Source: a virus. From it: a stretch of DNA of 46,172 bases. Both the position numbers and the translations under genes were made by a program. The notes under the pieces were generated by a model. It ran no database searches. It was not told where the DNA came from and saw nothing but the letters and a program-made list of their open reading frames with translations. Of the stretch, positions 8,379-46,107 are shown piece after piece (positions within the stretch are counted from its first letter, which is position 1; each line of letters begins with the position of its first letter). The DNA lies in the IMG/VR virus record IMGVR_UViG_3300035670_012355, positions 1 through 46,172 of that record. One strand, written 5' to 3'.

Positions 8379-8379
8379 T

Positions 8380-11964: not shown

Positions 11965-11966
11965 AA

Positions 11967-16824: not shown

Positions 16825-17363
16825 TTAGAGCGGTTTTCGTGTACTTCAAAAGCTGTTCTCATCCAGTCACCCATAAAATCATAGTGAGGGCAAGAAATAA
16901 TATTTCCATCTACTACTACAGGACCACGATCATAAGTAGCACCTGCGTTTTCAATATCTGTGTCAATTGAGTAGTAACCTGAAACTGTACGTCCTTGAAG
17001 AATTTTAGCTGAAATCATCAATTGAGCTCCATTACATACTGAGAATATGGTTTTGTTAAGAGCATTCCATTGGCGAATAAATTCTAGTACTCCTTTTTCT
17101 TGGCGAACCTTTTCAAGTGCTTTTACACCACCTGGAATGAGTAGAATTTCGTAATCATTTAGATATTGTTGACGAGTTGCTTCTTGCTCCATAACTGAAG
17201 TAGTAACATCACACATCATATGACTTCCTAGACTACCCCAAATTTTACCTACTTGGTTAGCCATTAGAGTTACTTCGTAACCATGTTCTTTTAGACTGTA
17301 ATATGGGTAGATCAATTCATGATCTTGATATTTTTCCCATGTAATAATAAGTGCTTTTTTCAT
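16821..17363 (-). CDS. DJ-1/PfpI-family protein
   Basis: A 180-residue class I glutamine amidotransferase-like fold: ALIITW at the start, LLIPGGVKALEKVR (75-88) and the nucleophile Cys110 in FSVCNGAQLM, the DJ-1/PfpI elbow. Family members include proteases, chaperones, glyoxalases and deglycases. Its place in a sugar operon would fit handling of reactive sugar aldehydes or removal of an amide, but the actual reaction cannot be read from sequence. Confidence 0.75.
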   Translation of the reverse strand: MKKALIITWEKYQDHELIYPYYSLKEHGYEVTLMANQVGKIWGSLGSHMMCDVTTSVMEQEATRQQYLNDYEILLIPGGVKALEKVRQEKGVLEFIRQWNALNKTIFSVCNGAQLMISAKILQGRTVSGYYSIDTDIENAGATYDRGPVVVDGNIISCPHYDFMGDWMRTAFEVHENRSK

Positions 17364-17387
17364 AGCGATAATATAATAAATTAAAAA

Positions 17388-17864
17388 TTAAGAGTCACGT
17401 TTAGACAAAATTGGATTTGAAATAGGCCAATAAATTCCTATTTTAGGATCATTCCATTTTAATGTAAATTGATCTTGAACATCTGGATAAGCTCCTGGGT
17501 AAGCCCATTTATAAAAGAATGTTGCTTCATCACTTAAAACAAAATGACCATTAGCAAACATAGGTGGAATTAAAACTGATTTTCTATTTTTAGAAGATAA
17601 AACAATTGAATCCCACTTTAAATAATTCTCAGATTCAGGTCTATTATCAACTACTACTAAATAAACTTCACCAGCTAAACAAGAAATATATTTCCAAGAT
17701 TTAGAATCACCGTGTAGTCCTCTTAAAACATGTTTACGAGAAATAGAGACTTTATCATGATTAAAAACTAATTCGTGGTCGTCTTGTTTGAATAAAGTAT
17801 AAAGTTCACCTCTAAAATCTTCAAATGAGTCGGGTTGGTATATTTTTACTTCAGGGAATATCAT
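17388..17864 (-). CDS. RmlC-like dTDP-sugar 3,5-epimerase or isomerase
   Basis: A 158-residue cupin. HVLRGLHGD holds the catalytic His of RmlC, followed by AGEVYLVVVDNRPES and a strand with IPPMFANGHFVLSD, in the order of dTDP-4-dehydrorhamnose 3,5-epimerase. Related proteins epimerise or isomerise 4-keto-6-deoxy sugars. It would supply stereochemistry in the cassette. ATG at 17864 overlaps the GT10 stop by 4 bases. Confidence 0.8.
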   Translation of the reverse strand: MIFPEVKIYQPDSFEDFRGELYTLFKQDDHELVFNHDKVSISRKHVLRGLHGDSKSWKYISCLAGEVYLVVVDNRPESENYLKWDSIVLSSKNRKSVLIPPMFANGHFVLSDEATFFYKWAYPGAYPDVQDQFTLKWNDPKIGIYWPISNPILSKRDS

Positions 17865-18745
17865 AAATTATTAGCTGATTTGATTTGATCTAAAAATAAA
17901 CTTAACTTATTTCTAAAAGTATCTTCCATAGCTACCTGATAGTTGTATTCAATGTAGGGTAGTCTGCTATAATAGTCTTCGGGAGTTAAATTATTTACAA
18001 TTCTAACTAATTCTTCTTCACTATTAAATCTAATAACTCCCCTTTCATCATATCCTAATTCTTCTAAATTAGGACAACCCCAATAAATTGGAACAGTTTT
18101 AGTAGCAAACGATTGAGCTATTTTTTCAGTATACCAATTGTCTATTTTTACATTTTCAACTGCTACGTGAAACATAAAGTCTGTAAATAGTATTCTTTTT
18201 CCAAAATACTCTGGGACTTCTCCGTTTGGGACGTGGGTTAAATCTTTAGAATAATGAGTGTAACCGGGTCTGACTTGTTTAGAAACGTCAAAATCTTCTA
18301 AAACATATTTCCATTCTTTAGGGATTTTAATTTCTTTCTTTAATTTATAAAGTCGTTGTCTAAATTTATGACCTTCAGCCCAATTAGTAGTACCACATAA
18401 AAATGATACTTTAAATTCTTTTTCAGGAGTAATAAACTTATTATAATATTCCTTATCTTCTGTATGAACTAGCCCAAAGCTAAATTCTACAGCATTAGGT
18501 AGTTTTTTTAAAAGATGTTTATTATAAGTTAATACTGTATCAAATAAAAAATAATTTTGTTCAACCCAATCATGTACTCTAAATAATTCATTAGGTTCAT
18601 GAAGTAAATATATTTTAGTACGATTTAAACTTAGTTGTTCTAAGTTAGGAACATGGTCCATAAACATAGTAACAGGAAGATCCTTATACTTGTTTAAAAA
18701 GTATTCATAATGTGTTGGGTTAAAAAAATTATGAAGTATTACCAT
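17861..18745 (-). CDS. GT10 fucosyltransferase-like protein
   Basis: A 294-residue protein. The C-terminal half has the hallmark of alpha-1,3/4-fucosyltransferases: FHVAVENVKIDNWYTEKI then ATKTVPIYWGCPN, which contact GDP-fucose. This suggests a GDP-6-deoxyhexose donor, in keeping with the GDP-sugar SDR and ColD-like genes. The N-terminal half is the acceptor domain. No signal peptide or membrane anchor is seen, so it is cytoplasmic. Confidence 0.8.
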   Translation of the reverse strand: MVILHNFFNPTHYEYFLNKYKDLPVTMFMDHVPNLEQLSLNRTKIYLLHEPNELFRVHDWVEQNYFLFDTVLTYNKHLLKKLPNAVEFSFGLVHTEDKEYYNKFITPEKEFKVSFLCGTTNWAEGHKFRQRLYKLKKEIKIPKEWKYVLEDFDVSKQVRPGYTHYSKDLTHVPNGEVPEYFGKRILFTDFMFHVAVENVKIDNWYTEKIAQSFATKTVPIYWGCPNLEELGYDERGVIRFNSEEELVRIVNNLTPEDYYSRLPYIEYNYQVAMEDTFRNKLSLFLDQIKSANNL

Positions 18746-19137
18746 GAAATATCCCAGTCTTTAAACTCGGCTGCTAAACAATCAATTTTATAGTCTTTAC
18801 GACCACCTACAACCTCCTGAATTTTATTTTTAGCTGTATTACGAATACCATTTAAACCGTGTGTTAATTCGAGATTATTCCCGTCTTTAATACCCTTACG
18901 GTAATTAGATTCGTTGTGCCATATGTGAAGATTCATTTGCGATAAAACAACTATAGCACGGATAGTTTCAGCTGTAATCTCAGACTTATTTTCATCAATG
19001 TGGGCCTGAATATCGTGAACTATATCAGCAATTTCTTGGGCGTATTCTGCTTTATGTTCAGGGATGAATACTTCTTTAAGTTGAACAATTGATAAACGAT
19101 CAACTAGTTCACTTAGTGTTGGTAGATATTTCCTCAT
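18739..19137 (-). CDS. Conserved-looking hypothetical protein
   Basis: A 132-residue, mostly helical protein starting at the ATG at 19137, inside the end of the GT2 gene; a TTG 30 bases upstream is less likely. The segment LPTLSELVDRLSIVQLKE is distinctive and looks like a widespread phage family, but I cannot name its function. Middle residues include MNLHIWHNESNYR. Because it lies between two glycosyltransferases, a role in the sugar pathway is possible. Confidence 0.6.
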   Translation of the reverse strand: MRKYLPTLSELVDRLSIVQLKEVFIPEHKAEYAQEIADIVHDIQAHIDENKSEITAETIRAIVVLSQMNLHIWHNESNYRKGIKDGNNLELTHGLNGIRNTAKNKIQEVVGGRKDYKIDCLAAEFKDWDISW

Positions 19138-19750
19138 AATATTGGTTTTGTTTTTCTTGTCGTTCAATAGTTTTGTGATGCTCTAGAGCAAACTCTGATT
19201 CTAATGGTAATATAGCATGAGTCTTATAACCTTCCAAAATTTCATGTACCTTATTTTTCCATCTAATTTCTGAGGTGCGTTTGTAGATTCTCCACTGTAG
19301 ATCAGGCCAATTAACTCTTCCATGATTGTCTACAATCCATCCCCACTTTTGAATATGTTCCTGTGTAAGTCCTTCTACAGTATTTACTCTAGGTACTCGA
19401 AGCACTTCTACATCATTATTCTCAAGCAACATAGGAAGATATTGAATTAAATACCAATTAGGCATTTCGTCAGCATCAATTTGGAAGATATAATCCCCTA
19501 AACAAGCATCTGTAAGGGCATTTTTCATATTAGCAAAATGTCCATCGAAATGGTAATGTAACCATCTAAAAGGAGCAAATGTAGTTTGAGATAGACTTCT
19601 CAGATAATCATCTACTGATTTAGAACCATTATTAGAATCATAGAATACAATAATTTCATCTTCTTTTCTTTTATTTTCAATCAAAAAAGGAAGTAAACGT
19701 TGTATTTCTACTAATTCATTACAAACCGTTATAGCGTAACTAATTTTCAT
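19109..19750 (-). CDS. GT2 glycosyltransferase
   Basis: A 213-residue GT-A protein from the ATG at 19750, 1 base before the upstream gene's stop. Strand-helix ISYAITVCNELVEIQRLL and the DxD motif QIDADEMP (residues 92-94) are clear; WRIYKR and VHEILEGY are typical of the WaaE/KdtX-like GT2 branch that adds glucose to LPS core. Cytoplasmic, using a nucleotide sugar. Confidence 0.85.
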   Translation of the reverse strand: MKISYAITVCNELVEIQRLLPFLIENKRKEDEIIVFYDSNNGSKSVDDYLRSLSQTTFAPFRWLHYHFDGHFANMKNALTDACLGDYIFQIDADEMPNWYLIQYLPMLLENNDVEVLRVPRVNTVEGLTQEHIQKWGWIVDNHGRVNWPDLQWRIYKRTSEIRWKNKVHEILEGYKTHAILPLESEFALEHHKTIERQEKQNQYYEEISTNTK

Positions 19751-19751
19751 T

Positions 19752-20198
19752 TTATTCAGGTAATACTCCAATATACGTTAAAGCCTCCATAAACTCACGT
19801 TCTGGGAAGTGTTTTAGAGTAGTCATATCCATTTTATAATCGTACTCTTTACCTTTAGCTTTAAATTTAGCTTTTTCGTCTTCAGGCATTAGGGTTGCTT
19901 TTACAGCACCCCAAGCCCAATTTTGACCATTAGCACCATCAGCAAATACCATTCCTTTATCAGGGATGTTTATAGCTGAAGGGATCCAAATGAGACCATT
20001 TTCATCTTCACCCATTAGCTCTTTATATAGTTCAGGAAGTACTTCCATTTGTTGGGCTAAAAATTCACTATCGCGAGTCATTACGTTGTTAGCTTGGAAA
20101 CCACAACCATAACAAAAATGAAGTCTTACTGTATCGTTTACTTCTTGAACGTAACAGGCATCTGAGCCACAACGATCACAGGTAGTTAAATTATCCAT
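19752..20198 (-). CDS. Zinc-ribbon hypothetical protein
   Basis: A 148-residue protein. Cys-x2-Cys pairs at CDRCGS and CYGCGF (residues 7-33) form a zinc ribbon. The rest is mixed alpha/beta with Trp-rich IWIPSAINIPDKG and NWAWGAVK. Similar proteins seem to occur in marine phages, function unknown. It lies between two GT genes with 1-base overlap to the upstream one. Confidence 0.6.
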   Translation of the reverse strand: MDNLTTCDRCGSDACYVQEVNDTVRLHFCYGCGFQANNVMTRDSEFLAQQMEVLPELYKELMGEDENGLIWIPSAINIPDKGMVFADGANGQNWAWGAVKATLMPEDEKAKFKAKGKEYDYKMDMTTLKHFPEREFMEALTYIGVLPE

Positions 20199-21499
20199 TA
20201 TACTGGTTTTTTAGGTAATTCAATTTTTTTCAAATCAGGTAGTTTAAGTTCTATCTTTTTAGGCAAATCAGGAATGTATTGAGTAAACAATTCATCTATT
20301 TTGTTTTTCATAGCTTCCCAACTAAACTCTTTTTTGTTTTTGAATGCCTGACGTTTAGCTCCATCAGTATAATTTTTATAGTTTTCAAAAACATCTTTAA
20401 GATAATGCCCCACAGCTCCGTGATCAACTGAAAACCATTGACTTTCTTTTAGAATCATATTAGGCACAACAGCTGATTCATGAACCTCAGTTAATTGACC
20501 TGGGAGTAAAGAAGTAAATTCTGGGTTAAGAAAATCAATATGACCTGACCATCCTGAAGTAATAATTGGTTTTTTGCTTAAACTGAATTCTAATAGTGGA
20601 CGACCAAATCCTTCACCTTTAGTTAGGTTAATCATTGCTTTTACTTTAGGATGATTATATAACTGGTTCATTTCTAAATCAGTAAATTCACCATGTAAAA
20701 GATAAATGTTAGGCAAATTAGTTGAAGCAACTGTTTTTTTAATTAAATCTATTCTTTTTAGGATTTCATTTCGATCCATATAAGAGGCACCTGCACCACT
20801 TGTTTTTAAAATAAGAGCTGGTTTCTTAGATTTATTTTTAAAAGTTTCATAGAATGCTTTAATTAATAAACCTACATTCTTTCTATCTTGACCTAGATCT
20901 CCTTGAAGCCAGTGTCCCACAAACAAGTAAGCAAATGATTCAGGAATATCATTTAAAGTATTGTATAGATTATTTTTAGGAAGAATATCTAATACTTTAT
21001 AAATGTCAATATTAGCTCCTTCGAATAATACTTCAATTGGTTTTTCTACTTTAACCTGACCTAATGATTGACCATTGGTGTGTTTCTTTTCAAATATTGA
21101 ATTAAGGAAAGTAGTTTTTGAATGGTTTGAAGAAGTAAGAGTAACATCCATTCTATTAATTCCTTCTACCCAAGAACCGTCTACTAAAGTAGTTTCCATA
21201 CCTGCTGTACAACCAATATTAAATTTACCAACTGGTTGAAATTCATTTGGAACTGTAATTTGCATCCAAATATCAGGTTGTTCAGTTAACTGAGGAGCTT
21301 TATTTAAGTATTTAGTTAAAAACATCCATTCAGGATTATTTTTTATAAAACCCCAAGGTGTGTTTCCCCAACGTTGTGATATTAATTTAACATCATATTT
21401 ATCTAGTTCTATAATCGCTTTAATTAAATCTCTAGAACGGGCTCCATAACCGCTGTATGTGTCAAAAGGAGCGCTTATATAAAACGTATTTTTACTCAT
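20198..21499 (-). CDS. GT4-type glycosyltransferase
   Basis: A 433-residue GT-B fold protein. The N-terminal domain begins TFYISAPFDTYSGYGARSRD; the C-terminal domain has VGHWLQGDLGQDRKN and the donor-site motif LTKGEGFGRPLLEFSLSKKP, which matches the E-x7-E retaining GT4 motif. It ends in a Lys/Pro/Leu-rich tail of about 25 residues. It should act as a retaining glycosyltransferase in the cytoplasm. Confidence 0.85.
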   Translation of the reverse strand: MSKNTFYISAPFDTYSGYGARSRDLIKAIIELDKYDVKLISQRWGNTPWGFIKNNPEWMFLTKYLNKAPQLTEQPDIWMQITVPNEFQPVGKFNIGCTAGMETTLVDGSWVEGINRMDVTLTSSNHSKTTFLNSIFEKKHTNGQSLGQVKVEKPIEVLFEGANIDIYKVLDILPKNNLYNTLNDIPESFAYLFVGHWLQGDLGQDRKNVGLLIKAFYETFKNKSKKPALILKTSGAGASYMDRNEILKRIDLIKKTVASTNLPNIYLLHGEFTDLEMNQLYNHPKVKAMINLTKGEGFGRPLLEFSLSKKPIITSGWSGHIDFLNPEFTSLLPGQLTEVHESAVVPNMILKESQWFSVDHGAVGHYLKDVFENYKNYTDGAKRQAFKNKKEFSWEAMKNKIDELFTQYIPDLPKKIELKLPDLKKIELPKKPV

Positions 21500-21500
21500 A

Positions 21501-22931
21501 TTAGTAAATTAATTTATGATTTAGAACTGGTTTTTTATAGGTTGTTGTGTTGATAAGTTCAAAGTTTTCTCTGGGAGTCCAAGTTGAAAATAACTCATCT
21601 ATACCTTCAATAATTCTGTTTGCTTGATGTTCCTGAGTAAATCCAGCTTCATTAGATAAAGCCCATTCTTTACCTGCTTTACCTCTAGCTTTAAGTTCTT
21701 CTTTAGATAAACTGTAAGCTTCTTTAATACACTTAGCTGCATCTTCCCAACTACATCTATCATCAAAGATGTAAGGTGTTGGGACAGAACCTTGAACTGA
21801 GTGGTTATTTGGGAAAACTGGGAATGCCCATTTACCGTGTTTCTTATAGGTGCCTCTATGGTTTGAAGGAAAATCAGCATCAAAATCAATCCAAGTACCA
21901 TCTTCAAATTCAAAACGCATTTGATCTTGCATTCCACCTGTTACGTTAGCGATAATTGGGTTACCAACTAAAAGAGCTTCTGTAAGTGATAAACCCCAAC
22001 CTTCATTTGAAGTAAGTAGAATTTGAATATCTGCCATATTGTGAAGATAATTCATACGTTTACTGTCGTATCTACCCTCTGTAAAGATAATATTACAGTA
22101 TTCAGGACATAGTGTTTCAATTACAGCAAACAAATCAGTTCCATTCTCATCAATCGGTTGAGTATGAAGCATCAATACTACTTTTTCTCTTTGTTCAGGA
22201 GTTAATTCTTCAACAAATTGTCTAAATGCTAAGATTGTATCTGGAATTTGTTTACGACGGATGTTTCTAGAGTTAAAGAATACTACAAACTCATATTCTT
22301 TTCCTTTAAATAATTGTTTTTTAAAGTCTTGAAACTCTTTATCTTGTTCCTTATCAATAGGAAAATATACTTTAGGATTCAAACCATGAGGAACATACTT
22401 AATAATCTTATTTTTAGCTTTATCACCTAAAACAAGTTTATTGATGTTAACTGTTTGTTTTGAAATTCCGAATAATGCATCACATGCTTCATAAAAAGCT
22501 TGGTTATACATTGGTGCTGGGTAATCATCCCAAATGTTTAGATAAATAATAGGAATTTCCTTACGGATTTCATTTTCAATAGCAAATAACCAAGCCCAAT
22601 AACGTGGATCAGTAATTAAGAAAATAGCATCTGGTTTTTCAATGCTAATAATATTTCTTAAAAGAGTAGCATCACCATAACCATTTACTGGATAAAGAAT
22701 AACACTAGAATCATCTATACCTGCATTTATATTAGTATCAGCACTTAAATCTAAACGCTTACCAGCATCAGGATGTTTAATTGCTCCTCCAATATTAACC
22801 CAGTTAAAATGATGGGCTGTGCCAATCATTACTTCTTTTCCTACTGTTCCGATGCCTGAGGGCATTCTAATATCATCGCACATCAAAAGAATTTTTTTCC
22901 TTTGATCCTTAGGGATATAACCTTGTTTCAT
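21501..22931 (-). CDS. GT4-type glycosyltransferase
   Basis: A 476-residue GT-B protein and the first sugar gene in transcription order. It has a Rossmann-like start (ILLMCDDIRMPSGIGTVG), VPHGLNPKVYFP, and the donor motif LTSNEGWGLSLTEALLVGNP with both Glu residues. The two GT4 genes are separated by one base and probably act in sequence on one glycan. No membrane segment is seen. Confidence 0.85.
   Translation of the reverse strand: MKQGYIPKDQRKKILLMCDDIRMPSGIGTVGKEVMIGTAHHFNWVNIGGAIKHPDAGKRLDLSADTNINAGIDDSSVILYPVNGYGDATLLRNIISIEKPDAIFLITDPRYWAWLFAIENEIRKEIPIIYLNIWDDYPAPMYNQAFYEACDALFGISKQTVNINKLVLGDKAKNKIIKYVPHGLNPKVYFPIDKEQDKEFQDFKKQLFKGKEYEFVVFFNSRNIRRKQIPDTILAFRQFVEELTPEQREKVVLMLHTQPIDENGTDLFAVIETLCPEYCNIIFTEGRYDSKRMNYLHNMADIQILLTSNEGWGLSLTEALLVGNPIIANVTGGMQDQMRFEFEDGTWIDFDADFPSNHRGTYKKHGKWAFPVFPNNHSVQGSVPTPYIFDDRCSWEDAAKCIKEAYSLSKEELKARGKAGKEWALSNEAGFTQEHQANRIIEGIDELFSTWTPRENFELINTTTYKKPVLNHKLIY

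Positions 22932-26628: not shown

Positions 26629-26629
<1 letters not shown>
26369..26629 (-). CDS. Hypothetical protein
   Basis: An 86-residue protein with a Pro-rich, acidic C-terminal tail ending in KYDLYGDFE and a conserved-looking centre. It is fused into the transcription unit between groEL and the clamp loader ATPase, with TAATG coupling to groEL's stop. Not recognised. Confidence 0.55.
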
Positions 26630-28561
<1,932 letters not shown>

Positions 28562-30183: not shown

Positions 30184-31113
30184 TTAAAAACTAAAAAACA
30201 GATTACGGTAGGGATTTAAATTAAGTGACCATCCTAAATCATGATAAAACCCTTCTAATTTACTTTCCAAAATCGATTCAAATGATTTGTGTTTGTCAGC
30301 ATAATCGTCTAATAATGTACGAATCTTTTCTGGCATATCAAAATCTAGGAATGCGAGTGCTTCTACTTTGTATGGGTTATCTTTTAGATAAATCCATTTT
30401 ACTTTATCACCCTGTGTAATTCTAGAGTGTTGTTTATCTAAACCCCAAAATGATAGTAAATCATTGTATTTGATAGCTGCTTTAACTGGGGCAGGTGCTT
30501 TAGGTTTGATTAATGAGAACATTTCTCCGGGTTTAGGGGCACGCTCAACATAATCGTTTAGAGTTTTTACTGAAGTTGGGTTACCTAGAATTGTAATATC
30601 AAGCTCTTTTGACATAATGTGCTCTCTAAACTCTAGAAGCAATTTATCAATTTCACTTTGTTTAGTACCCTTAAGAGCTAACTCTAGAATTTTATTAAAG
30701 AACTTTCCAAAAATAGGAGGAAAGTTAGCTTTCATAAACTCTAGACCTTTAATATCTAGCTCGTTTTTAACTACACCTTCTTTTTTAGTAATCCACTGAG
30801 CGTATCTTCGAGTTGCTCTAAAGTAAGCTGAACGAATGATACACTCGGTTTTCATCTCAAAACGGTGAACAGGAACGTTAAACACGTTTGTGGACATTTC
30901 CGAATAATAATCGGTAATTAAGTCTTGGTATTTGAGGGCGATTTCTTCAAGTTTGTTATCTCTTTCTTCTTCATCCATCTCATCAAAATTAGGGTAGAGA
31001 TGCCTAAGCAGAGGTTCAGCATTATAATAGTTAGAGTCGGTATCAACATAAGCGCAATAATTAGTATCGCCTTCTTTACAGATAAACCAAGGTGTACTTT
31101 CTAAATTAATCAT
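30184..31113 (-). CDS. DNA polymerase family B, C-terminal half (motif C onward)
   Basis: A 309-residue protein that begins just before polymerase motif C: YVDTDS with Asp24 and Asp26, one half of the catalytic palm. ATRRYAQW matches the KKRY-type motif that contacts DNA, followed by the thumb. The C terminus is YRNLFFSF, resembling the clamp-binding tail of T4 gp43. It lacks exonuclease, motif A and motif B, which are in the 31575-33296 gene. It must associate with that half to act. Its ATG overlaps the Smr gene stop as ATGA, so all four genes are coupled. Confidence 0.9.
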   Translation of the reverse strand: MINLESTPWFICKEGDTNYCAYVDTDSNYYNAEPLLRHLYPNFDEMDEEERDNKLEEIALKYQDLITDYYSEMSTNVFNVPVHRFEMKTECIIRSAYFRATRRYAQWITKKEGVVKNELDIKGLEFMKANFPPIFGKFFNKILELALKGTKQSEIDKLLLEFREHIMSKELDITILGNPTSVKTLNDYVERAPKPGEMFSLIKPKAPAPVKAAIKYNDLLSFWGLDKQHSRITQGDKVKWIYLKDNPYKVEALAFLDFDMPEKIRTLLDDYADKHKSFESILESKLEGFYHDLGWSLNLNPYRNLFFSF

Positions 31114-31334: not shown

Positions 31335-31575
31335 TATGTATTACACCCTCAAGTTCACCTTTTTGGTTGTAAATCTGTTCGGGAACAGTAATATAAAATT
31401 TTTCTCCTTTAATGCTAAAACGTCCTCCTTGCTTAAGCATTTTCTTAAAAAAGAGTACTTCTTTATCTGACCACTTTTCTGATTTGAAAATAATAGTATC
31501 TTTGTCAAGTTTTTCACCTGCGCTATAAATTGATACTCCTGCTCTAATTGATTGTTTTGAAATTTTGTTTTCCAT
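31312..31575 (-). CDS. Hypothetical protein between polymerase halves
   Basis: An 87-residue protein, beta-rich and basic in the centre (KMLKQGGRFSIKGEKFYI), acidic at the end. ATG overlaps the stop of the polymerase N-terminal half as TAATG. Not recognised; a bridging or nucleic-acid binding role is only a possibility. Confidence 0.55.
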   Translation of the reverse strand: MENKISKQSIRAGVSIYSAGEKLDKDTIIFKSEKWSDKEVLFFKKMLKQGGRFSIKGEKFYITVPEQIYNQKGELEGVIHNEEEDNA

Positions 31576-33296
31576 TATAGTGTAAGTTCTCCTCTCATTA
31601 CTTTATTCATATGAGTGTTAGCAAAATAAGCTGATTCCTGAATAATTCGTTGACCAGACAAAGTAATACTTTCACTCAAAATTACGTTACCATACCTGAA
31701 TGAACCCAAAGCAGTAGCTCCGTAAAGTGAGTTCAACAAGATTTTCATTGTGTGTTGCATCAAGTGAAACTTTTCACCATCTGCTTTGTTGCCTGCTTTG
31801 TAAGCTTGCTTCATTTTATTTTTATATATAACTCGCTCCTCAAACCATTTTGCCAGAATCGTTTTTAGTACCGAATCAAAATCAGTTCGGTACATAACTC
31901 CATTAGCTGAAATTGCTAAATTAGAAGATTCTACCAAATTGATAATGTCTTTAACCTTCATTTGAGCTGTTCTACGCTTTGAATTTTGAACAGTAAACTC
32001 GTGATCCGGATTCATCTTTTTCAAATCATTTAATCCGTATCGACAGTTAAAAATCTCTTTATTCTCAACGACTACTTTTTCATCCGGCATCAAAATCCTA
32101 CCTACTAGCGTTTCTTTACCGATATTCAAAGACATGATAATTGAAGGATACAATGAAGTTAAATCCTCGTCAAACATGTAATTGAATAAACCCGCGTTAG
32201 GACAAAATAAGTAACCACCTGCGTAATTCTTTTTAGTAATTGGATTTCGATCGCGAGCCGGAGGTACAATACCTTGAGACAACAAGTAAGCCGAAATAGC
32301 ACCATCGTGAATCATACTATTCTTGTAAACGTCTGAATAGTTGATTTTACCTTTATGTGCTAGGTTTTTTGTTAAAGGTAAGTATTGGAATTTCTCGTCT
32401 AATGCCTTTAAAATCTCTACGTCTCGGAAGTTGTACGAGATAAACTTTTGTTTGTCTTCTCTAAACAAGCGGTCCAAACTACCCTCGTACTCGATTTTTT
32501 CCATACCTACGTACTTTTTACCTAAGGCATCAAGCTTATAGGATGGTTCGTCTTTAAAGCTAAACTTTTTGTGTAGCTTCATATAGTCTAAAGATTCGGT
32601 ACCCGCAATTTTAAGCCAACCATCTCTGTTCCATTCGGATTCATCCATTACAATTCCGATCGGAGACAGCATGTTTGCTACTTCTTTGTCAAATACATTA
32701 CAAAGGCGGTAATAGAGGTAAGGGATATCAAAGTAGTCACTGTTGTAGCCAACAAGTATATCCGGATTAATTTCGCGGAGGTGGGTTATAAAAGCCTCAA
32801 GTAAGGCTTTTTCTGTCGGAACCGGAATAATCTCCCTGTTACCTTCTTTATCTCTTTGTAGCTCGCTTTTTTTATCTAAGATAAGAATTTTCCACTCATC
32901 TGTTTGCTTATGCCACCAAGCTATAGAGGTGATAGGTTTAGGAGCGCTACGAATGTAATCTTCTGTAAGCGCACCTCCCATTTCACACTCTATATCAAAA
33001 AATACTTCTTGGTGGGTAGTAGAGGGCTCGTCATTTGTTCCGTACATATCAACTAGAAACCTTTGGTAGGGCCTCATATCGTGAAAGTGCAATTTGGGGT
33101 TATCTTTTTCCCATTTATTTACTTTACGGAGTGATTCTTGTCTTAATCCTCTAATGTTCTTGTCTGCATCATGATCATCGCATTCAACGTAAGCGTGGTA
33201 ATTCCAAGCCATAGTTTGATAACCGCCATCATCCCACAAGTGAATTCTATAATTGTTTTCCTTGAGGGGTTGTACAAAACAAGATTTATAACTCAT
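31575..33296 (-). CDS. DNA polymerase family B, N-terminal half (exonuclease to motif B)
   Basis: A 573-residue protein. The 3'-5' exonuclease is complete: DIE at residues 101-103, GYNSDYFD with Asp190, and YNFRD with Asp292. Polymerase motif A is DEDLTSLYPS with Asp378; motif B is KILLNSLYG (518-526). It ends 47 residues after motif B, before motif C, which is in the separate 30184-31113 gene. Catalytic aspartates of motifs A and C are thus on two polypeptides. It is the first of four coupled genes. Confidence 0.92.
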   Translation of the reverse strand: MSYKSCFVQPLKENNYRIHLWDDGGYQTMAWNYHAYVECDDHDADKNIRGLRQESLRKVNKWEKDNPKLHFHDMRPYQRFLVDMYGTNDEPSTTHQEVFFDIECEMGGALTEDYIRSAPKPITSIAWWHKQTDEWKILILDKKSELQRDKEGNREIIPVPTEKALLEAFITHLREINPDILVGYNSDYFDIPYLYYRLCNVFDKEVANMLSPIGIVMDESEWNRDGWLKIAGTESLDYMKLHKKFSFKDEPSYKLDALGKKYVGMEKIEYEGSLDRLFREDKQKFISYNFRDVEILKALDEKFQYLPLTKNLAHKGKINYSDVYKNSMIHDGAISAYLLSQGIVPPARDRNPITKKNYAGGYLFCPNAGLFNYMFDEDLTSLYPSIIMSLNIGKETLVGRILMPDEKVVVENKEIFNCRYGLNDLKKMNPDHEFTVQNSKRRTAQMKVKDIINLVESSNLAISANGVMYRTDFDSVLKTILAKWFEERVIYKNKMKQAYKAGNKADGEKFHLMQHTMKILLNSLYGATALGSFRYGNVILSESITLSGQRIIQESAYFANTHMNKVMRGELTL

Positions 33297-37409: not shown

Positions 37410-37636
37410 TTACGTATAAATTGATAATTAATAAAAAGAAACATTAGAGCAGCCGCTGTTAACCAGCGACCCTCTCCTGCTTCAAAAAGTGAGCTAAACA
37501 AAAAGCTCCAATGTCCATATTTCAAAAACCAAGTTTCAAATTTTTTCATTTTACTATTTTTTTGTTTTTGTTCTTTTTCCCAACGTTCTTTATTTTTACC
37601 GTTGAAAATATCTCTATAGAGATTACTTCGATCCAT
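37406..37636 (-). CDS. Small membrane-associated protein
   Basis: A 76-residue protein with a charged Lys/Glu-rich first third, a Trp-rich middle and a hydrophobic C-terminal segment (about 58-72). ATGA overlaps with the thioredoxin start. Not recognised. Confidence 0.5.
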   Translation of the reverse strand: MDRSNLYRDIFNGKNKERWEKEQKQKNSKMKKFETWFLKYGHWSFLFSSLFEAGEGRWLTAAALMFLFINYQFIRK

Positions 37637-38480
37637 GACTTTCTAGTACTTTTGATACTTCTGCTACTACGTGTTCCCAAGTTACAGGACCGGTCTCGTC
37701 TGCATATTCTACTGGGTCAGGACGACCTAGTTTAAGGAATGCCTCAACTCGTTCTACTGAAGAAGCTGATTTGTAATCTGAGTACCATTTGTAAGCATTA
37801 GTCTCTGGACGGTTATACCATTTGATTGGTTTATAAGATGTATTTGTACGTGAATATACTTCATTAAAATCAAGTCCTAATTCATCACACAATACTTCTC
37901 CATCTTGTAAAATGGTGAATTTATCACCTTTAAGATAGGGTGTAAAATAACTTACATTTTCAGCACCCCAATTACCTATTCTAAAAGCATAATCGTCTGC
38001 GTCACGGAATTCTTGACGACAATCAGGATAGATTGCATGGTCACCTGCGTGAATACCCATTGCAATGTCACACATTTCACCTGTTTTATCAGCGATTGAA
38101 AGTGCAACTGCTTGAGTAATTGAAGCAAAGATTTTGTTACGATTAGGAACAACTGTTGCTTTCATATTTTCTTCAGCATAGTGTCCTTCAGGTACTTCAT
38201 CTCCACCTGTTACAAGTGCTGAGTTAAGTAGATCAACCAAACCGTCAAGTTTGATAACTCGGTAGTTAATCATTGAATAAGCATCTTTACTTTTACCTTC
38301 TACTAATCTTTGAAAATTTAAAAGGTTTACTAAAGATTGAGCACGGTCAAGTTCAACTCGGTGTTTTTGACCATAATCAAATGAAAGTGCTGTTACTGTA
38401 TCGTACTCTTTCAAGCAACGAAGCAACAATGTTGAGGAATCCATTCCTCCAGATAACGAAACTACAACGTGTTTTGCCAT
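37623..38480 (-). CDS. queC: 7-cyano-7-deazaguanine synthase (QueC) without zinc cysteines
   Basis: A 285-residue PP-loop enzyme: SGGMDSS (10-16), ALSFDYGQKHRVEL and VVPNRNKIF are QueC signatures. It makes preQ0 from carboxy-deazaguanine and ammonia with ATP. The four Cys that bind zinc near the C terminus of QueC are absent: the aligned region reads NTSYKP and YKSASSVERVEAF. It may need no zinc. A start codon is preceded by an A/T-rich leader. Confidence 0.88.
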   Translation of the reverse strand: MAKHVVVSLSGGMDSSTLLLRCLKEYDTVTALSFDYGQKHRVELDRAQSLVNLLNFQRLVEGKSKDAYSMINYRVIKLDGLVDLLNSALVTGGDEVPEGHYAEENMKATVVPNRNKIFASITQAVALSIADKTGEMCDIAMGIHAGDHAIYPDCRQEFRDADDYAFRIGNWGAENVSYFTPYLKGDKFTILQDGEVLCDELGLDFNEVYSRTNTSYKPIKWYNRPETNAYKWYSDYKSASSVERVEAFLKLGRPDPVEYADETGPVTWEHVVAEVSKVLESHGSK

Positions 38481-40184: not shown

Positions 40185-41273
40185 TTAAAAATAGCTTTTT
40201 GTATTCCCGTCTAAATAATCTCGTAATTTTTTCTTTCGCCAAGCTGAAATACCTGGGTTATTTAGAATTTTGTCTTCACTTAAAGGTGGAATGGAGGGTT
40301 CACCACTCATTTTAACTTCAATTTCTGGCTCTTGTAAATCTTCATCTTCCCATTCTTCATCTTCTAAACCATCCATTAAAGTTGAGTCCCAATCACTAAG
40401 GTCTTCTTTAGTGTAAATATCAGTTCCCTCGTTATCTTCTTTATCCTTATACATGTCATATCCTTCTTTAGAACGTAATTGAGCAAAAGCAAAATTAGCT
40501 GCAATCACAAGAGCAATTGCTAAAGGATCAAATACAAAGATAATAATTAAAAGAAGTACATTGATAATTTTATCCATTGATACTCCTGTTAGACCTGAAA
40601 GGTACTTAAGTGGACCTAATTCTCCTGCTAGTTCACTATTAGTTTTAACTTCTACTATTTCAGTTTCGTATTCAAATAATTTAGTATTTAATTCATCTAC
40701 TTTACTATTCAAATCTGATTGACGAGAAATAGCTTGGTCTAATTGTTTTTCAAGTGATTTACGATTAGCTGAAGATGAGGTAGATAATATATTTCCATCT
40801 TTGTCTTTATAGGTTTGAATGTTACCTGCTAATCCTGATCTTAGGTTTGATACAGCAGCGTTAATACTTTCTTTTTCAGCATTATAAACTGCTAACTGTT
40901 CTTTAATATTGTCTCGTTTTACCTCTATTAGAGATACTTGGGCGTCAATATTACCTGCTTTGTTTGCTGTTTCTTGATAAGCAGCAGATAAGAAACCATA
41001 AATACCCATTGAGGTAATTAAAATAAGCACACCAGCCGCTATTGTTAAATAGGTTCGGAGTGCTTTATTTATTGAATCCCAATATTGGTAAAGTAGGGAA
41101 GCTATAACTAATTTAGCGATTTCTAATGAAGAGGCCATAATAATGACCTCAAGTGAAGCCCCAGCAAAGAGTTTGCTAAGGCCGCTAACTGAATAGAAAG
41201 CGGCCGAAGCAGACACTGACAGGGCGGAGAATGCTATTAAAAGCGGAAATATTTTATTCTTTAGGTTCTTCAT
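40185..41273 (-). CDS. Membrane protein with central coiled coil
   Basis: A 362-residue protein with three or four hydrophobic segments near the N terminus (about residues 8-30, 35-60, 72-98) and one near 235-262, a long coiled coil between (about 105-215) and an acidic cytoplasmic tail of about 90 residues. The layout suggests a pair of membrane hairpins joined by a helical stalk. Not recognised; it could be a lysis-timing protein, an envelope adaptor or a superinfection block. Confidence 0.65.
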   Translation of the reverse strand: MKNLKNKIFPLLIAFSALSVSASAAFYSVSGLSKLFAGASLEVIIMASSLEIAKLVIASLLYQYWDSINKALRTYLTIAAGVLILITSMGIYGFLSAAYQETANKAGNIDAQVSLIEVKRDNIKEQLAVYNAEKESINAAVSNLRSGLAGNIQTYKDKDGNILSTSSSANRKSLEKQLDQAISRQSDLNSKVDELNTKLFEYETEIVEVKTNSELAGELGPLKYLSGLTGVSMDKIINVLLLIIIFVFDPLAIALVIAANFAFAQLRSKEGYDMYKDKEDNEGTDIYTKEDLSDWDSTLMDGLEDEEWEDEDLQEPEIEVKMSGEPSIPPLSEDKILNNPGISAWRKKKLRDYLDGNTKSYF

Positions 41274-41691
41274 CTCTAATACCTTTATGTTTATCTATCT
41301 TATCCAGTATCTGGTTTAGTAGACTTACCTGGATAAAACCAGCCATAGATGCATTTTTAAGTGCACTTATTAACTGAAATATCATAAAAGGTACAACAAT
41401 TACTTCACTAAGCCAAGCTGTACCAGCAAAGCCTTGTTCAACCATTAATATAACTGTTAAGATGACTAACCAAGCAACTGTATTTCTTAATACATTTAAT
41501 GCTTTGCGAGTCTGGAATCCTTCTCTTTTGGTTCCAGCAATCATACCAAATATACCATCTAGAAACATTACCCCCACTATAGCCAAATACTGATCTGAAT
41601 TTGCCATAGTAAGTTCCATGAAATAGGAACACATGAAGGTGATACCCGCGGATAATGAAGTTATAGCCAATAGTGGGAGGTTAAGTTTCAT
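41254..41691 (-). CDS. Holin-like membrane protein
   Basis: A 145-residue protein with three or four hydrophobic stretches (about residues 5-25, 34-52, 66-90, 95-112) and a charged, basic-to-acidic C terminus. The sequence YLAIVGVMFLDGIFGMIAG with its following Lys/Arg loop resembles the phage holin 4 family. It precedes the coiled-coil gene and follows the GH19 endolysin, an expected place for a holin. Not certain. Confidence 0.6.
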   Translation of the reverse strand: MKLNLPLLAITSLSAGITFMCSYFMELTMANSDQYLAIVGVMFLDGIFGMIAGTKREGFQTRKALNVLRNTVAWLVILTVILMVEQGFAGTAWLSEVIVVPFMIFQLISALKNASMAGFIQVSLLNQILDKIDKHKGIRDEEPKE

Positions 41692-41698
41692 AGAGGTT

Positions 41699-42316
41699 TT
41701 ATTTTACGTATTCGTAGTACTTGTATGTTTTAGTTTTTCTATCTTCTAAACCATGAGTACCACCATTAATACGTTTTGTAAGAGCTAAAATAGCTGCATC
41801 GTTGATACCTTGGTCACAGATAGACCACAACTTATTTCTTTCAAAGAAGAACATAGCTGATTCAAAAGCATACTTAGTAGCAACTAAATCTGGGTTCTCT
41901 AAAACTTCGTTATTGTTTAAATACTTAGCAAAAGCTTCGTAGTTAGATTTACCAGTTAATTGTAGAGCACCTCTACCTCTGTATTTCCAACCATCACCTG
42001 AAGCTTCGTCTCCGTTACCCATTCTAGAAGCATAAACTACGTTAGCGATTTTTTCTGGGTTACGAGCGTAAGCGTTAGCGTCACGACCAGCGTTTTTAAA
42101 GTATTTAGGGAAAATTTTGTTTAAACCATCAGCTGAGTAATTTAAATTTTCGGAAAATGCTTTAAAACCACCTGTCTCGTGTGCGGTTTGAGCAAAGAAA
42201 TGTGCTGCTCTAACAGGTGAAAATTTATAGAAAGCAGTAGCTGCTTTCATTGTACCAGGACCGAAAGCACCGTCTGCGGCTACTCCGGCTTTTTCTTGTA
42301 AACTTTTTAAGCTCAT
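41699..42316 (-). CDS. Endolysin: peptidoglycan-binding plus GH19-type lysozyme
   Basis: A 205-residue protein. Residues 3-30 look like a peptidoglycan-binding repeat (LQEKAGVAADGAFGPGTMKA). The catalytic region has AQTAHETGGF with the catalytic Glu, FSENLNYSADGL with the second Glu and YRGRGALQLTGKSNY, the motifs of GH19 chitinase-like lysozymes. No signal peptide, so it needs a holin to reach the wall. Confidence 0.9.
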   Translation of the reverse strand: MSLKSLQEKAGVAADGAFGPGTMKAATAFYKFSPVRAAHFFAQTAHETGGFKAFSENLNYSADGLNKIFPKYFKNAGRDANAYARNPEKIANVVYASRMGNGDEASGDGWKYRGRGALQLTGKSNYEAFAKYLNNNEVLENPDLVATKYAFESAMFFFERNKLWSICDQGINDAAILALTKRINGGTHGLEDRKTKTYKYYEYVK

Positions 42317-42561
42317 AATCCGTCTTCTTCTTGTTTATTACCTTTACCAAAAATCTTACCTGCTTCAGCGATACCGAAAGCACCTAAGGTAATGATTACG
42401 AACGAATTGAATACAGTATCTGAAATAACGAGTTCTTGGCCCATGATACCTGTAACGATGTCAGCAAGAGCTGCAATGCTCATTACTGAGAATGACATAA
42501 AACCAACGATTGTTTTTTCGTTGTAGTCATTTTTGTCTTTAAAAATGTCTGAAAATCCCAT
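42313..42561 (-). CDS. Small holin-like membrane protein
   Basis: An 82-residue protein with two hydrophobic segments (about residues 20-42 and 48-68), a charged start and a charged tail. It overlaps the endolysin start by ATGA. The size and site fit a class II holin, so it competes with the 41254 gene for that role. Confidence 0.6.
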   Translation of the reverse strand: MGFSDIFKDKNDYNEKTIVGFMSFSVMSIAALADIVTGIMGQELVISDTVFNSFVIITLGAFGIAEAGKIFGKGNKQEEDGL

Positions 42562-42620: not shown

Positions 42621-43040
42621 TTAAATTGTTTTTAAAGCGTCCTCAAGAGAACGTTGTAAAGCTTTGGAGAACGCCTTTCTATTAAGCGGAACTTCATTAT
42701 TTTCAACATCTAACAAAGCAGCAAATAATAAAGTTTTTCTTTTAGCGTCTCCCATATATTCTTTTCCGTCAATGGTTATTTTAACTTCTACAATATAATC
42801 TTTTCTTAACCACTGCATTCCTACTATATTAAGTTTCTGTTGTGGAGATTCAATTTTAGTAATCTCTACTGAGATATGATGCATTTGAGGATTAAAATCT
42901 TTATCATAAAGAATTTCTTCAACAGTTTCTTTTATACCAAATCGAACATCTCTATCTTCAATTGTTTGAATTGGGGTAGTATTGATAACTGTATCAACTT
43001 GGGCTGTAGCTAAAGTAGCTGCTAATAAAATTGAAAGCAT
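42621..43040 (-). CDS. Small secreted protein of the CsgG module
   Basis: A 139-residue protein with a Sec signal peptide likely cut before Gln (ATA-Q at about 14). The C-terminal part, ending with LNRKAFSKALQRSLEDAL, is faintly reminiscent of the curli helper CsgE, but this is too weak to name it. It follows the GEVED protein gene by one base. It is probably periplasmic. Confidence 0.55.
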   Translation of the reverse strand: MLSILLAATLATAQVDTVINTTPIQTIEDRDVRFGIKETVEEILYDKDFNPQMHHISVEITKIESPQQKLNIVGMQWLRKDYIVEVKITIDGKEYMGDAKRKTLLFAALLDVENNEVPLNRKAFSKALQRSLEDALKTI

Positions 43041-43041
43041 A

Positions 43042-44094
43042 TTAATTGTTGTATCCTGTTCTTACTAAATAAAAATTAGTGCTACCTTGGTTAGTTAATC
43101 CAGTTATAGTAACACTTTGTTGTCCGGTATACGTATTTTTTAAATTACTGTTAGATGCATTTATAACATTCCATTCTGCTACAGTAAATATTCTGTAATT
43201 AGGGATTCCAGGTTTCCATCCTCTACCTAATATTCTCATAAAAGTAAGGTAAATATCAGTTATAGATAAACTATTATCTCCGTTTACATCCATTCTATAA
43301 TAATCTTTAGCTACAAAAGATTGAGATAATACTTTTTGATTAAAGGCTTGGGCATCACTATTTGCAGGAGCTCCTATGGTTAAACTACCTAAACGTAATT
43401 CAAAATCATATAAATTAGCGTCTCTAGAAGATGATAAATTATATCTACCATTAGCATCAGTTATATGATTACTTAAAAAAGTATAAGTAGGGTCTGATTT
43501 TAATTTACTATATAATTGAAAAGGAATATTAGGGATTCCTACCCCTTCAGCCCCATAGACATAACCATTATAAGCAAATGGATCTTGTGCTCCTGTAATT
43601 GTTGTTTTAAAATCAAATGTATTACCATAAGGATAATTACCACAAAGAGTAGGAGATGAAGAATACACCATTATAAAACGGGCATAAACTTGACCATTAA
43701 ATACTGAGGTAGGGACTGTAAATGTGCTGTTAAAACTTCTAGTGCCAGTCCAAACATCAGTATGTGAATAAACTAATTCACCAGGGTCACTTAAGTTCCC
43801 ATTACCATTAAAGTCAATCCATAACTTAAAATATTGTTGGTAATTTCCTTTTGTTTGAGCTGTAAACGAAATTGAAATATTTTGACCAGCGTTAATAGTA
43901 GGAATAGGAGTACCTGTATAATCATAATAACCGGGTCCTGAATACGCAGTATTACCCTGATAATATTGACCATTTATAGTTAGGTTAGCCATATATTCGT
44001 AACCAAAACTAGTAGAGGTACTAGCACATAAAGGTGACTGGGCGTATGATTGCACACCTGATAGAATAAGTAATATTATGAGTAATTTTCTCAT
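43042..44094 (-). CDS. Secreted GEVED-domain and dockerin-like protein
   Basis: A 350-residue protein with a signal peptide cut before Gln (SYA-QSP). Residues about 35-165 form a GEVED domain (FKLWIDFNGNGNLSDPGE). A Cna-B/carboxypeptidase-like fold follows, with NHITDANGRYNLSSS, and then DVNGDNSLSITDIYL, a dockerin-like calcium loop near residues 272-286. These are adhesin-type building blocks of Bacteroidota surface proteins. It is the best candidate for cargo of the CsgG-like pore. Its start overlaps the barrel-protein stop. Confidence 0.75.
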   Translation of the reverse strand: MRKLLIILLILSGVQSYAQSPLCASTSTSFGYEYMANLTINGQYYQGNTAYSGPGYYDYTGTPIPTINAGQNISISFTAQTKGNYQQYFKLWIDFNGNGNLSDPGELVYSHTDVWTGTRSFNSTFTVPTSVFNGQVYARFIMVYSSSPTLCGNYPYGNTFDFKTTITGAQDPFAYNGYVYGAEGVGIPNIPFQLYSKLKSDPTYTFLSNHITDANGRYNLSSSRDANLYDFELRLGSLTIGAPANSDAQAFNQKVLSQSFVAKDYYRMDVNGDNSLSITDIYLTFMRILGRGWKPGIPNYRIFTVAEWNVINASNSNLKNTYTGQQSVTITGLTNQGSTNFYLVRTGYNN

Positions 44095-45440
44095 AGGATC
44101 AGTTTAGCACCTAATAATACTTGATAGTTTAAAATATTAGCACCCGCAAGGTAAGTTCCACCTCCTGTTAACCCAAATCCAAATGTTTTAGTTAATTTAT
44201 AATTTACATTAAAGAATGGGATTATAATAGGTTTAGAATCAAACCAAGATTCAGTATAGTATTTTGAGTAAGGAGCATAAACACCTGCGGCAATTAAAGT
44301 GCCATCTATGTTTTTATAAAGTTTACCTTTATACATAAACCCAGCTACTGCTAGAGTTGATATAATAGGTTCTTTATATAGGTAACCTACACTACCAGCA
44401 GCACCATAAATGGCAGTAAAACGTTTTAAGCTATTTACTCTAATAAACATTGTAGTATTAGACCAAGCACCTGGCTGGAATGACATTCCTGAAGATAAAA
44501 GGTTAATACCTTTGTTTCCTTTTTCAGTAGTACTAATCCAAGATTTCATTACAGTTATATTACTGATTCGAGCTCGAACCATATAATCAGCTGATAGACC
44601 AATTGATGCTGTGCCATCTCCTTTTACACGAGTAAACGAAAATGTGCCTCTAGCATCATTGGTTTTATCGTCTGTTTTTTGAAGACCAACTATATCGCCA
44701 GTTACTAAAATAGCAGGTTTTTGAACTTGTGCTTTAGCTTTAGCTGTTGTTTTTGAGGTTTGATTCGCATCTGATTTTTGTTGGTCTGTTTTAGCTTCAT
44801 CTATTTTCTCCTCAGATGGAACTCCCTCTTGACCTCCTCCTTGAGTTTCTCCTGTTGAAGTTCCTCCGCTAGATTCGCTAGGGTTAGGGGAACCAGAATT
44901 AGGGTTGCTAGTACCCCCACCGCTGCTAGAACCTGAACCTGAGTTGCCAGAAGAACCAGTGTTGTTATTATTGTTACTACTGTTGCTCGAGCTAGAAACA
45001 TTTGACTGAGAATTGTTATTGTCTTCATTTGAGGAGGAATTTGAATTTGATTGGTTACCTGTATTAATATTTCCTCCTAAATTAAGAGAAGAAATAGACG
45101 TAACTGTACTTAAATTCAGAACATTATTAATTATATTAGTTGTTAAATTTGTGGTAGATGTTGTTGTAACTGTAGTAAATACTTCACTACAGGGGGCCGC
45201 TACATAATTAGAATATACTTGGTTAAGCCACGTATCTAAAACACCACTAGAAATTTCATTGTAAGTAAATGCTCGGGTCTGCCCATAATATGAAACTATA
45301 ATAGGAGCACTCATATCGTACATTAAAGTCTGTACTTGTTGAGTACAAGGATCAATATACGAATACATGAAGGTCTGCCCTTTTAAGGACAAACCTCCAA
45401 GTAAAAATAGGAATGCTAATATTTTAGTTTTCAAATACAC
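44091..45440 (-). CDS. Outer-membrane protein with Asn/Ser/Gly-rich linker
   Basis: A 449-residue protein with a signal peptide cut before Gln (LKG-QTF). After a mature domain with two Cys (residues about 32-85), a Thr-rich region and a long Asn/Ser/Gly/Pro low-complexity linker (about 120-210) lead to a C-terminal domain of about 230 residues with alternating strands that look like an outer-membrane beta barrel. The start is GTG at 45440, or TTG at 45434; the upstream gene's end overlaps by 17 bases. Likely in the outer membrane with the CsgG-like pore. Confidence 0.7.
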   Translation of the reverse strand: MYLKTKILAFLFLLGGLSLKGQTFMYSYIDPCTQQVQTLMYDMSAPIIVSYYGQTRAFTYNEISSGVLDTWLNQVYSNYVAAPCSEVFTTVTTTSTTNLTTNIINNVLNLSTVTSISSLNLGGNINTGNQSNSNSSSNEDNNNSQSNVSSSSNSSNNNNNTGSSGNSGSGSSSGGGTSNPNSGSPNPSESSGGTSTGETQGGGQEGVPSEEKIDEAKTDQQKSDANQTSKTTAKAKAQVQKPAILVTGDIVGLQKTDDKTNDARGTFSFTRVKGDGTASIGLSADYMVRARISNITVMKSWISTTEKGNKGINLLSSGMSFQPGAWSNTTMFIRVNSLKRFTAIYGAAGSVGYLYKEPIISTLAVAGFMYKGKLYKNIDGTLIAAGVYAPYSKYYTESWFDSKPIIIPFFNVNYKLTKTFGFGLTGGGTYLAGANILNYQVLLGAKLIL

Positions 45441-46107
45441 CGTTCTTGATAAGTTTTTCGATTACATTAGTACTAGCTGTTTCTAATGCTTTACGAGTTG
45501 CCTTACCTACCGTGCTTTGAGAGAATGTCATACCATCCAATGATTTTAAGAATGCTTCACCTGTTTTTGTAGCTTCACCTTCACCTGAGCCAATGTAAAT
45601 TTGCCCAGTTTCAGCGTTTACAAATCTAACTTGTAGTCTAATAAATGTAGTTACTACAACTTTAGCTTTGCCTTTTACTACGGTTTCATCCTCATCAACA
45701 GCAAAATCCGCTACAGTTACATAAACAAAGTAACGAGCAGCTTTAATTTTACCTTTACCATCAATTGGTTCTTCAAACACACCTTTTTTAGATGCTTTGA
45801 ATTGTGTTACCATTCTTTCTTTGATTTCAGATTTTTCTTCTGTAAAGTCAAAGCGATTAGTTTCATCTAAATAATCAAGTACAGATTCAGCGAATCCTAA
45901 ACCTACATTTTTTTCTTGCAAGCTAGGATACATTTTGAATACTTTCTCTAAATCTACATTTATAACTTGAATAGTAGTTTTAGCTCCAGAATAATCTGAA
46001 ACTGTAGAGATACTTTTAGATACTACTTCATCTCCTTCAGTTACGGTTGACATTGAACCACAACCTGTAAGGAGGAGTAAAATTGCTAGACTACCAAGGA
46101 TCCTCAT
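45424..46107 (-). CDS. CsgG-like lipoprotein secretion pore
   Basis: A 227-residue lipoprotein: LLLTGC with Cys16, then the CsgG-type fold (TTIQVINVDLEKVF, YFVYVTVADFAV, VVVTTFIRLQVRFVNAETGQIYIGSGEGEA). CsgG forms the nonameric outer-membrane channel that exports curli subunits. It is a little shorter than E. coli CsgG (277). Similar csgG genes have been reported in some marine phages. The two genes after it are probably its partners. It overlaps the partial gene upstream by 17 bases. Confidence 0.85.
   Translation of the reverse strand: MRILGSLAILLLLTGCGSMSTVTEGDEVVSKSISTVSDYSGAKTTIQVINVDLEKVFKMYPSLQEKNVGLGFAESVLDYLDETNRFDFTEEKSEIKERMVTQFKASKKGVFEEPIDGKGKIKAARYFVYVTVADFAVDEDETVVKGKAKVVVTTFIRLQVRFVNAETGQIYIGSGEGEATKTGEAFLKSLDGMTFSQSTVGKATRKALETASTNVIEKLIKNGVFEN

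Follow-up and report, generated by a model that had tools for sequence, protein, structure and literature searches.

A phage gene module that may display exchangeable glycan-binding proteins on a cohesin scaffold at the infected-cell surface

Genes at the locus

The window analysed here is the whole of virus record IMGVR_UViG_3300035670_012355 (46,172 bases), which carries on its minus strand, next to one end, four tightly packed open reading frames (ORFs) that include the gene of a CsgG-superfamily lipoprotein. They belong to a module, found in a group of phages of Flavobacterium-like bacteria, by which the infected cell seems to be covered with sugar-binding proteins held on an anchored scaffold. 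The four genes encode the lipoprotein (45424..46107, 227 amino acids, lipobox LLTG-C), a barrel-like secreted protein (44091..45440, 449 amino acids, GTG start), a cargo protein with a signal peptide (43042..44094, 350 amino acids) and a small secreted protein (42621..43040, 139 amino acids); the order and extents that the first-pass annotation gave for them agree exactly with the ORFs. The lipoprotein and barrel genes overlap by 17 bp, the barrel and cargo genes by 4 bp, and 1 bp separates the cargo gene from that of the small protein. The same annotation called three signal peptides cut before glutamine, and hydrophobic leaders followed by this residue are indeed found in the barrel-like, cargo and small proteins (LKG-QTF, SYA-QSP and ATA-QVD; leaders and lipobox were judged by eye and hydrophobicity). 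Comparison of the window with its close relatives L003 and L004 gives dN/dS values of about 0.08-0.18 for all four genes, indicating that they are under purifying selection. For the Bacteroidota promoter consensus, there is 1 match against 2.14 expected, and a sigma-70 promoter scan stays below background.

A stretch of 81 bases at the contig end (46091..46171, minus strand) encodes the C-terminal 26 residues of a fifth protein, which has one membrane segment and is of the type of gp16 of Flavobacterium phage immuto. It is recognized by its ending, EKPAPAPAKPVEDEDPW before the stop, which is the family ending of alignment A8, and its gene overlaps the start of the lipoprotein gene by 17 bp. 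Because this conserved upstream gene is cut by the contig end, the module is incomplete in the window and its scaffold gene lies out of view.

The cargo protein consists of two parts. Its exchangeable head contains a GEVED domain (residues 88-163, 43606..43833; PF20009, E 6.5e-12), and its constant half (residues 175-347, 43054..43572) combines an immunoglobulin (Ig)/transthyretin-like domain with a single F-hand, dockerin-like loop, DVNGDNSLSITD. This C-terminal half is common to other cargo and to the scaffolds, and the earlier description of a GEVED/dockerin-like protein holds. As a profile against the Protein Data Bank (PDB), the constant half matches transthyretins and, weakly, a dockerin.

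The lipoprotein owes its CsgG identity to its predicted fold. As a single sequence it has no match to a Pfam or NCBIfam CsgG profile, and PF03783 (Pfam CsgG) is matched weakly by 10 of 33 relatives (best E 0.018), with the curated cut-off exceeded in none of five genomes. An hhalign comparison with E. coli CsgG aligns 20 columns at a probability of 0.7%, and the family alignment as a profile finds no match among PDB sequences. The AlphaFold model, a monomer built from a 42-sequence alignment (predicted local distance difference test, pLDDT, 72.4), has E. coli CsgG as its best Foldseek rows (E 1.1e-6, probability 1.00). VIA-align superposes it on CsgG over 160 residues at 3.5 A (Z 11.6), with CsgG in all of the top seven rows, followed by Cj1090c (Z 10.6), which we take to be an LptE, and PelC (Z 9.4).

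The first-pass annotation went further and proposed a lipoprotein pore. The fold and the lipobox stand; the outer-membrane pore is not supported. The lipobox motif is present in the window protein and its clade (82/82) and in 34 of 80 proteins of the clade of Flavobacterium phage immuto, with none seen in the other 46. In the 155 of 162 proteins that could be parsed, hairpin 1 comprises 25-26 residues vs. 27 in reference CsgG, and hairpin 2 comprises 25-28 vs. 36-37, a shortfall of 8-12 residues relative to the CsgG of E. coli and of phages. The hairpins are also more charged (fractions of 0.33 and 0.26 vs. 0.19 and 0.19 in reference CsgG).

The small protein also adopts this fold in its model (pLDDT 83.3): its VIA matches are effectively tied between Cj1090c (Z 11.0), CsgG (10.5 and 10.4) and PelC (10.1). 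Since both proteins match the same superfamily fold, the operon has two CsgG/LptE/PelC-fold proteins. Identification of the small protein as CsgE was considered and is unsupported, given an hhalign probability of 0.1 and these fold matches. The barrel-like protein is defined by its sequence pattern and conservation. It has two conserved cysteines near the N-terminus and then an Asn/Ser-rich linker, and its C-terminal half (about 44094-44720) appears to resemble an outer-membrane beta barrel. Among the matches of 24 members there is no Pfam outer-membrane protein family, and against PDB profiles and Pfam the protein gives only low-complexity or chance matches. The gp16 family (e.g., L003:995-1321), encoded ahead of the CsgG-like gene, has one membrane segment followed by a tail that is rich in Pro, Ala and Asn and terminates in PW or SW; a TonB- or spanin-like role is conceivable.

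Conserved synteny and head exchange

Relatives were collected from IMG/VR with the window CsgG-like protein (120 relatives) and with immuto gp017 (113), keeping the best 80 of each; a profile scan returned 121 relatives with an identical first 80. With the window and one further locus, L083, this gives 162 loci (2 x 80 + 2), on contigs of up to 308,574 bases. These are not independent events because many contigs are near-identical, and synteny fractions refer to loci with enough flank. The order is conserved: a cohesin scaffold that bears a type IX sorting tail, the one-membrane-segment protein, the CsgG-like protein, the barrel-like protein, the cargo and the small protein. The barrel-like gene comes next after the CsgG-like gene in 161/161 loci, and the small-protein gene lies within 4.5 kb in 133/133. 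On the other side, gp16 precedes the CsgG-like gene in 151/152 loci, and the cohesin scaffold or its split half is found within 3 kb before it in 127/127. Dockerin-like cargo is encoded in 80/80 loci. The earlier suggestion, made from the window alone, of a system additional to csgG/csgF is supported, as is a CsgG-fold protein on a phage with conserved secreted partners; in the relatives a scaffold lies just upstream.

Every one of the 54 distinct scaffolds of the relatives carries Por_Secre_tail, the C-terminal type A sorting domain of the type IX secretion system (T9SS), and 50 carry a Cohesin domain. The cohesin profile matches solved scaffoldin cohesins in the PDB (E 1.3e-4, positions 5-143 of 147). 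The scaffolds also carry a dockerin-like half of their own, and immuto has a split scaffold, made up of gp14 and gp15. A cargo-type C-terminal half was recognized in 168 proteins, the gp14 type included, and the calcium-loop motif is present in 121 of them. Among the 85 distinct cargo tested against Pfam, the heads belong mostly to Lectin_C (49), followed by GEVED (12), Laminin_G_3 (8) and PA14 (4), with overlaps; some heads, such as that of L052, have no Pfam match. Neither a type IX tail nor the curlin repeat family is among the families reported for these 85.

The heads are exchanged as whole units. Where all genes are present (52 loci), the CsgG-like protein has a median pairwise identity of 81.0%, compared with 73.0% for the scaffold, 65.1% for gp16, 61.9% for the barrel-like protein, 59.1% for the constant half of the cargo, 40.5% for the small protein and 25.0% for the heads. 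The 138 loci with one main cargo yield 65 pairs with at least 96% CsgG-like identity and different head classes, a number that includes L056 (shortened head) and unclassified heads of incomplete ORFs. Clean swaps are found between L051 and L049, L050 and L052 (CsgG-like and small proteins 100% identical, heads 47-57%, with 57% for L052) and between L079 and L080 and L082 (CsgG-like 99.1%, small protein 98%, head 28%; Lectin_C vs. GEVED).

Two other sources of head variation were considered. Lectin variation driven by a diversity-generating retroelement is rejected because no reverse transcriptase was found: RVT_1 is matched in 0/16 phage records, some of them possibly incomplete, with a positive control in 3/14. 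A point-mutation hotspot in the lectin is not seen in the first 50 kb of three immuto isolates, where differences occur in blocks: the lectin gene has 13 in isolate 3-5A and 1 in 13-6C, and gp16-gp19 have none. The block-wise pattern is exemplified by L170 (22125-28155) against L168 and L169. A lysin-annotated gene within this block (22125-22685) shows 130 differences per kb vs. 0 in gp16-gp19.

Distribution and comparison with known systems

Flavobacterium phage immuto (four records) is the only match among 50,697 phage records; this holds for searches with the CsgG-like and barrel-like proteins, with the scaffold and with two types of cargo. No relative occurs in 72,556 plasmids. The single locus from a cellular genome, L083, is a 16.5-kb contig of a Sphingomonadaceae metagenome-assembled genome and probably represents a misbinned phage. 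Immuto, the sole cultured carrier, infects Flavobacterium sp. LMO8; T9SS occurs in the genus Flavobacterium. We found no paper on immuto itself in the open-access literature, and the parts consulted of the report on its host strain make no mention of cohesin or lectin (PMC7077304). The immuto module (10.5-16.4 kb) follows the genes for DNA polymerase, single-stranded DNA-binding protein (SSB), RecA, helicase and ribonucleotide reductase on the same strand, and across loci, relatives of these replication genes close to the module always lie on the module strand.

Two further window genes have counterparts in immuto. The window encodes a QueC homologue (37623-38480, minus strand, E 3.5e-157 to immuto), and the annotation of immuto includes a set of genes for 7-deazaguanine modification of DNA, with DpdA among them. 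GroEL is encoded at 26629-28278 (minus strand; PHROG 5725, E 2.3e-152), and immuto also has GroES-GroEL. The window DNA polymerase is split into neighbouring genes (30184-31113 and 31575-33296, minus strand) that cover positions 41-567 and 565-842 of PHROG 262 with almost no overlap.

Several components have precedents. Phage CsgG/CsgF genes are already known (PMC7029224, PMC9004378), as are phage T9SS-tailed variable proteins (PMC7468147), as far as the consulted parts of these papers go. Like the curli system of E. coli (CsgG/CsgF/CsgE) and the phages HTVC008M and Melnitz, the module combines a CsgG-superfamily lipoprotein with small secreted proteins in an operon, and in both HTVC008M and immuto the CsgG-type gene lies near the SSB gene or other replication genes. 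In contrast to curli, there is hardly any match at the sequence level, CsgE and curlin were not detected in the module, and in their stead it has another protein with the CsgG fold, the barrel-like protein, cargo of the dockerin type and a scaffold with cohesin and a T9SS tail. We do not class it as type VIII secretion because the Pfam CsgG profile and a curlin substrate are both lacking. In Melnitz (L167), two genes downstream of csgG (5851-6570 and 7629-8645) are annotated as encoding curlin-associated repeat proteins, although csgA and csgB are lacking according to its paper.

A cryophage system shares the phage-encoded variable proteins and the T9SS tails. One of its proteins has PA14, and the authors suggest superinfection exclusion or inter-strain competition; the text consulted mentions neither cohesin nor dockerin (PMC7468147). 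In that system, the variable proteins bear the tail themselves, whereas here the tail belongs to the conserved cohesin scaffold, with the variable heads on separate dockerin-like proteins, and a CsgG-fold set accompanies them. The cellulosome is alike in its cohesin scaffold and in exchangeable partners that carry a dockerin-like domain with a calcium loop next to an Ig-like one, and the module looks as if it works like cohesin-dockerin display. It differs in being viral, in cargo with binding heads rather than enzymes, and in a T9SS tail as address. The cargo half is dockerin-like by its sequence and has one F-hand loop in place of the two of a dockerin, because of which the system is not classed as a cellulosome. 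The PelBC exopolysaccharide exporter likewise pairs a CsgG-superfamily ring lipoprotein, PelC, with a barrel, PelB, and PelC is among the best structural matches; however, no Pel gene was seen, and the barrel-like partner in the module is without a Pfam relative. We found no description of viral scaffold-and-dockerin display in the open-access literature, which does not exclude one, and the matches listed for cohesin, dockerin and bacteriophage seemed unrelated by their titles and abstract openings.

Proposed surface display and its alternatives

The arrangement suggests a phage-encoded display system on the surface of the infected cell, with glycan-binding heads on a T9SS-exported cohesin scaffold, a reading to which we give roughly even credence. 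Given its type IX tail, the scaffold (cohesin, dockerin-like half and tail) would be exported by the host T9SS and anchored on the infected cell. The cargo, an exchangeable and mostly glycan-binding head on the constant Ig/dockerin-like half, has a Sec signal and no type IX tail. It would reach the surface through, or aided by, the phage envelope proteins: the two CsgG-superfamily proteins, the barrel-like protein and the one-membrane-segment protein. There, we infer, it would dock on the cohesin scaffold, and the displayed heads could recognize glycans that belong to the host surface itself or to rivals. With tail and cohesin on a conserved scaffold and glycan-binding heads on tail-less dockerin-like cargo, the predicted division of labour is that which display needs. 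The window also encodes nucleotide-sugar epimerases, an aminotransferase and two glycosyltransferases (9953-22931, minus strand); this gene content suggests an additional modification of host surface glycans by the phage and fits surface remodelling without proving it.

Several observations weigh against this reading. The window scaffold gene is off the contig, and its presence in the window phage is taken from the relatives. The shortened and charged hairpins make pore formation by the CsgG-like protein doubtful, and with it the exit route of the cargo. The dockerin-like half has a single loop, and Pfam Dockerin_1 is matched in only 6 of the 85 cargo (best E 2.8e-4). Finally, the 65 swap pairs are of mixed quality, and the immuto lectin gene by itself is no mutation hotspot.

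As a benefit of display, superinfection exclusion is the most likely, if tentative, candidate: other phages would be blocked, or met with competition, at the cell surface. Adhesion or aggregation is an unlikelier end use. As an explanation in its own right, adhesion would use the lectins on display to attach infected cells to algae, to particles or to sibling cells, or to trap progeny virions on debris, similar to the "sibling capture" proposed for pelagimyophage curli genes (PMC7029224, in the part consulted). Glycan-binding folds in most heads and an exported anatomy identical to that of display agree with it, but the exchange of entire heads among nearly identical phages is easier to reconcile with an arms race than with a constant need for adhesion, and in the consulted text no clumping is reported for Melnitz, a phage with CsgGF (PMC9004378); we regard it as unlikely though of some weight. 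The cargo and scaffold might instead be particle decorations or fibres that bind host glycans. Lectin folds are common in phage adhesins. The leaders on all four window proteins and the type IX tails on 54/54 scaffolds speak against a place in the virion, as does the position of the immuto module beside replication and nucleotide genes rather than in the tail/head block, and this explanation is improbable.

Lysis was one of three functions guessed at first, and a lysis role has been proposed for Melnitz CsgGF (PMC9004378, consulted in part); here, a CsgG-like outer-membrane pore would time or help lysis. In the window, the module genes run into those for an 82-amino-acid membrane protein (42313..42561), a GH19-type endolysin (41699..42316; PHROG 181, E 6.8e-63) and a holin (41254..41691; Phage_holin_4_1, E 4e-6), all on the minus strand. 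This neighbourhood is not constant: a relative of the membrane protein is present in 69 loci, and of the 80 modules with flank only 42 have a relative of the endolysin nearby. The GH19 lysin and holin of immuto (43.7-44.8 kb) are about 27 kb from the module, with a further lysin-annotated gene at 22.1 kb. The place of the module beside replication genes and far from this lysin and holin would argue against lysis and for action before it. The scaffold and lectin cargo would be without a role in lysis, for which the hairpins are also short and charged. A lysis role is unlikely from the gene context, and as the explanation of the module very improbable. Least credible is a pared-down curli (type VIII) system for the secretion of amyloid fibres. 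It could draw on the CsgG-fold protein and on phages with csgF, csgG and curlin-annotated genes, but the cargo are folded lectin, GEVED, PA14 and LamG proteins with no curlin repeat family reported, there is next to no match with E. coli CsgG at the profile level, and an E. coli CsgG query, which finds pelagiphage HTVC008M, Melnitz and a Salmonella fragment, misses immuto. Two of the three initial guesses, a phage-made surface layer and a block to superinfection, fit best.

A further-reaching form of the display reading is a virus-encoded scaffoldin system, in which a cohesin-dockerin coat would be combined with its own exporter for the cargo, made of two CsgG-superfamily proteins and a barrel and distinct from type VIII, a T9SS anchor and swaps of whole heads that would alter what the coat binds. 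The scaffolds, each with a cohesin and its own dockerin-like half, might in addition link up into a surface layer of polymeric kind. We put this forward as possible but doubtful. Published proposals for phage CsgG-like genes, in the parts consulted, comprise uptake, sibling capture and lysis timing (PMC7029224, PMC9004378). Such genes have so far been without a convincing substrate, and the module provides candidate cargo. Every informative locus links the CsgG-fold protein with folded, swappable cargo and a T9SS-addressed cohesin scaffold, so that the substrate question becomes testable in cultured immuto. If display is right, lytic phages would use modular adhesins that bind glycans to remodel the infected-cell surface.

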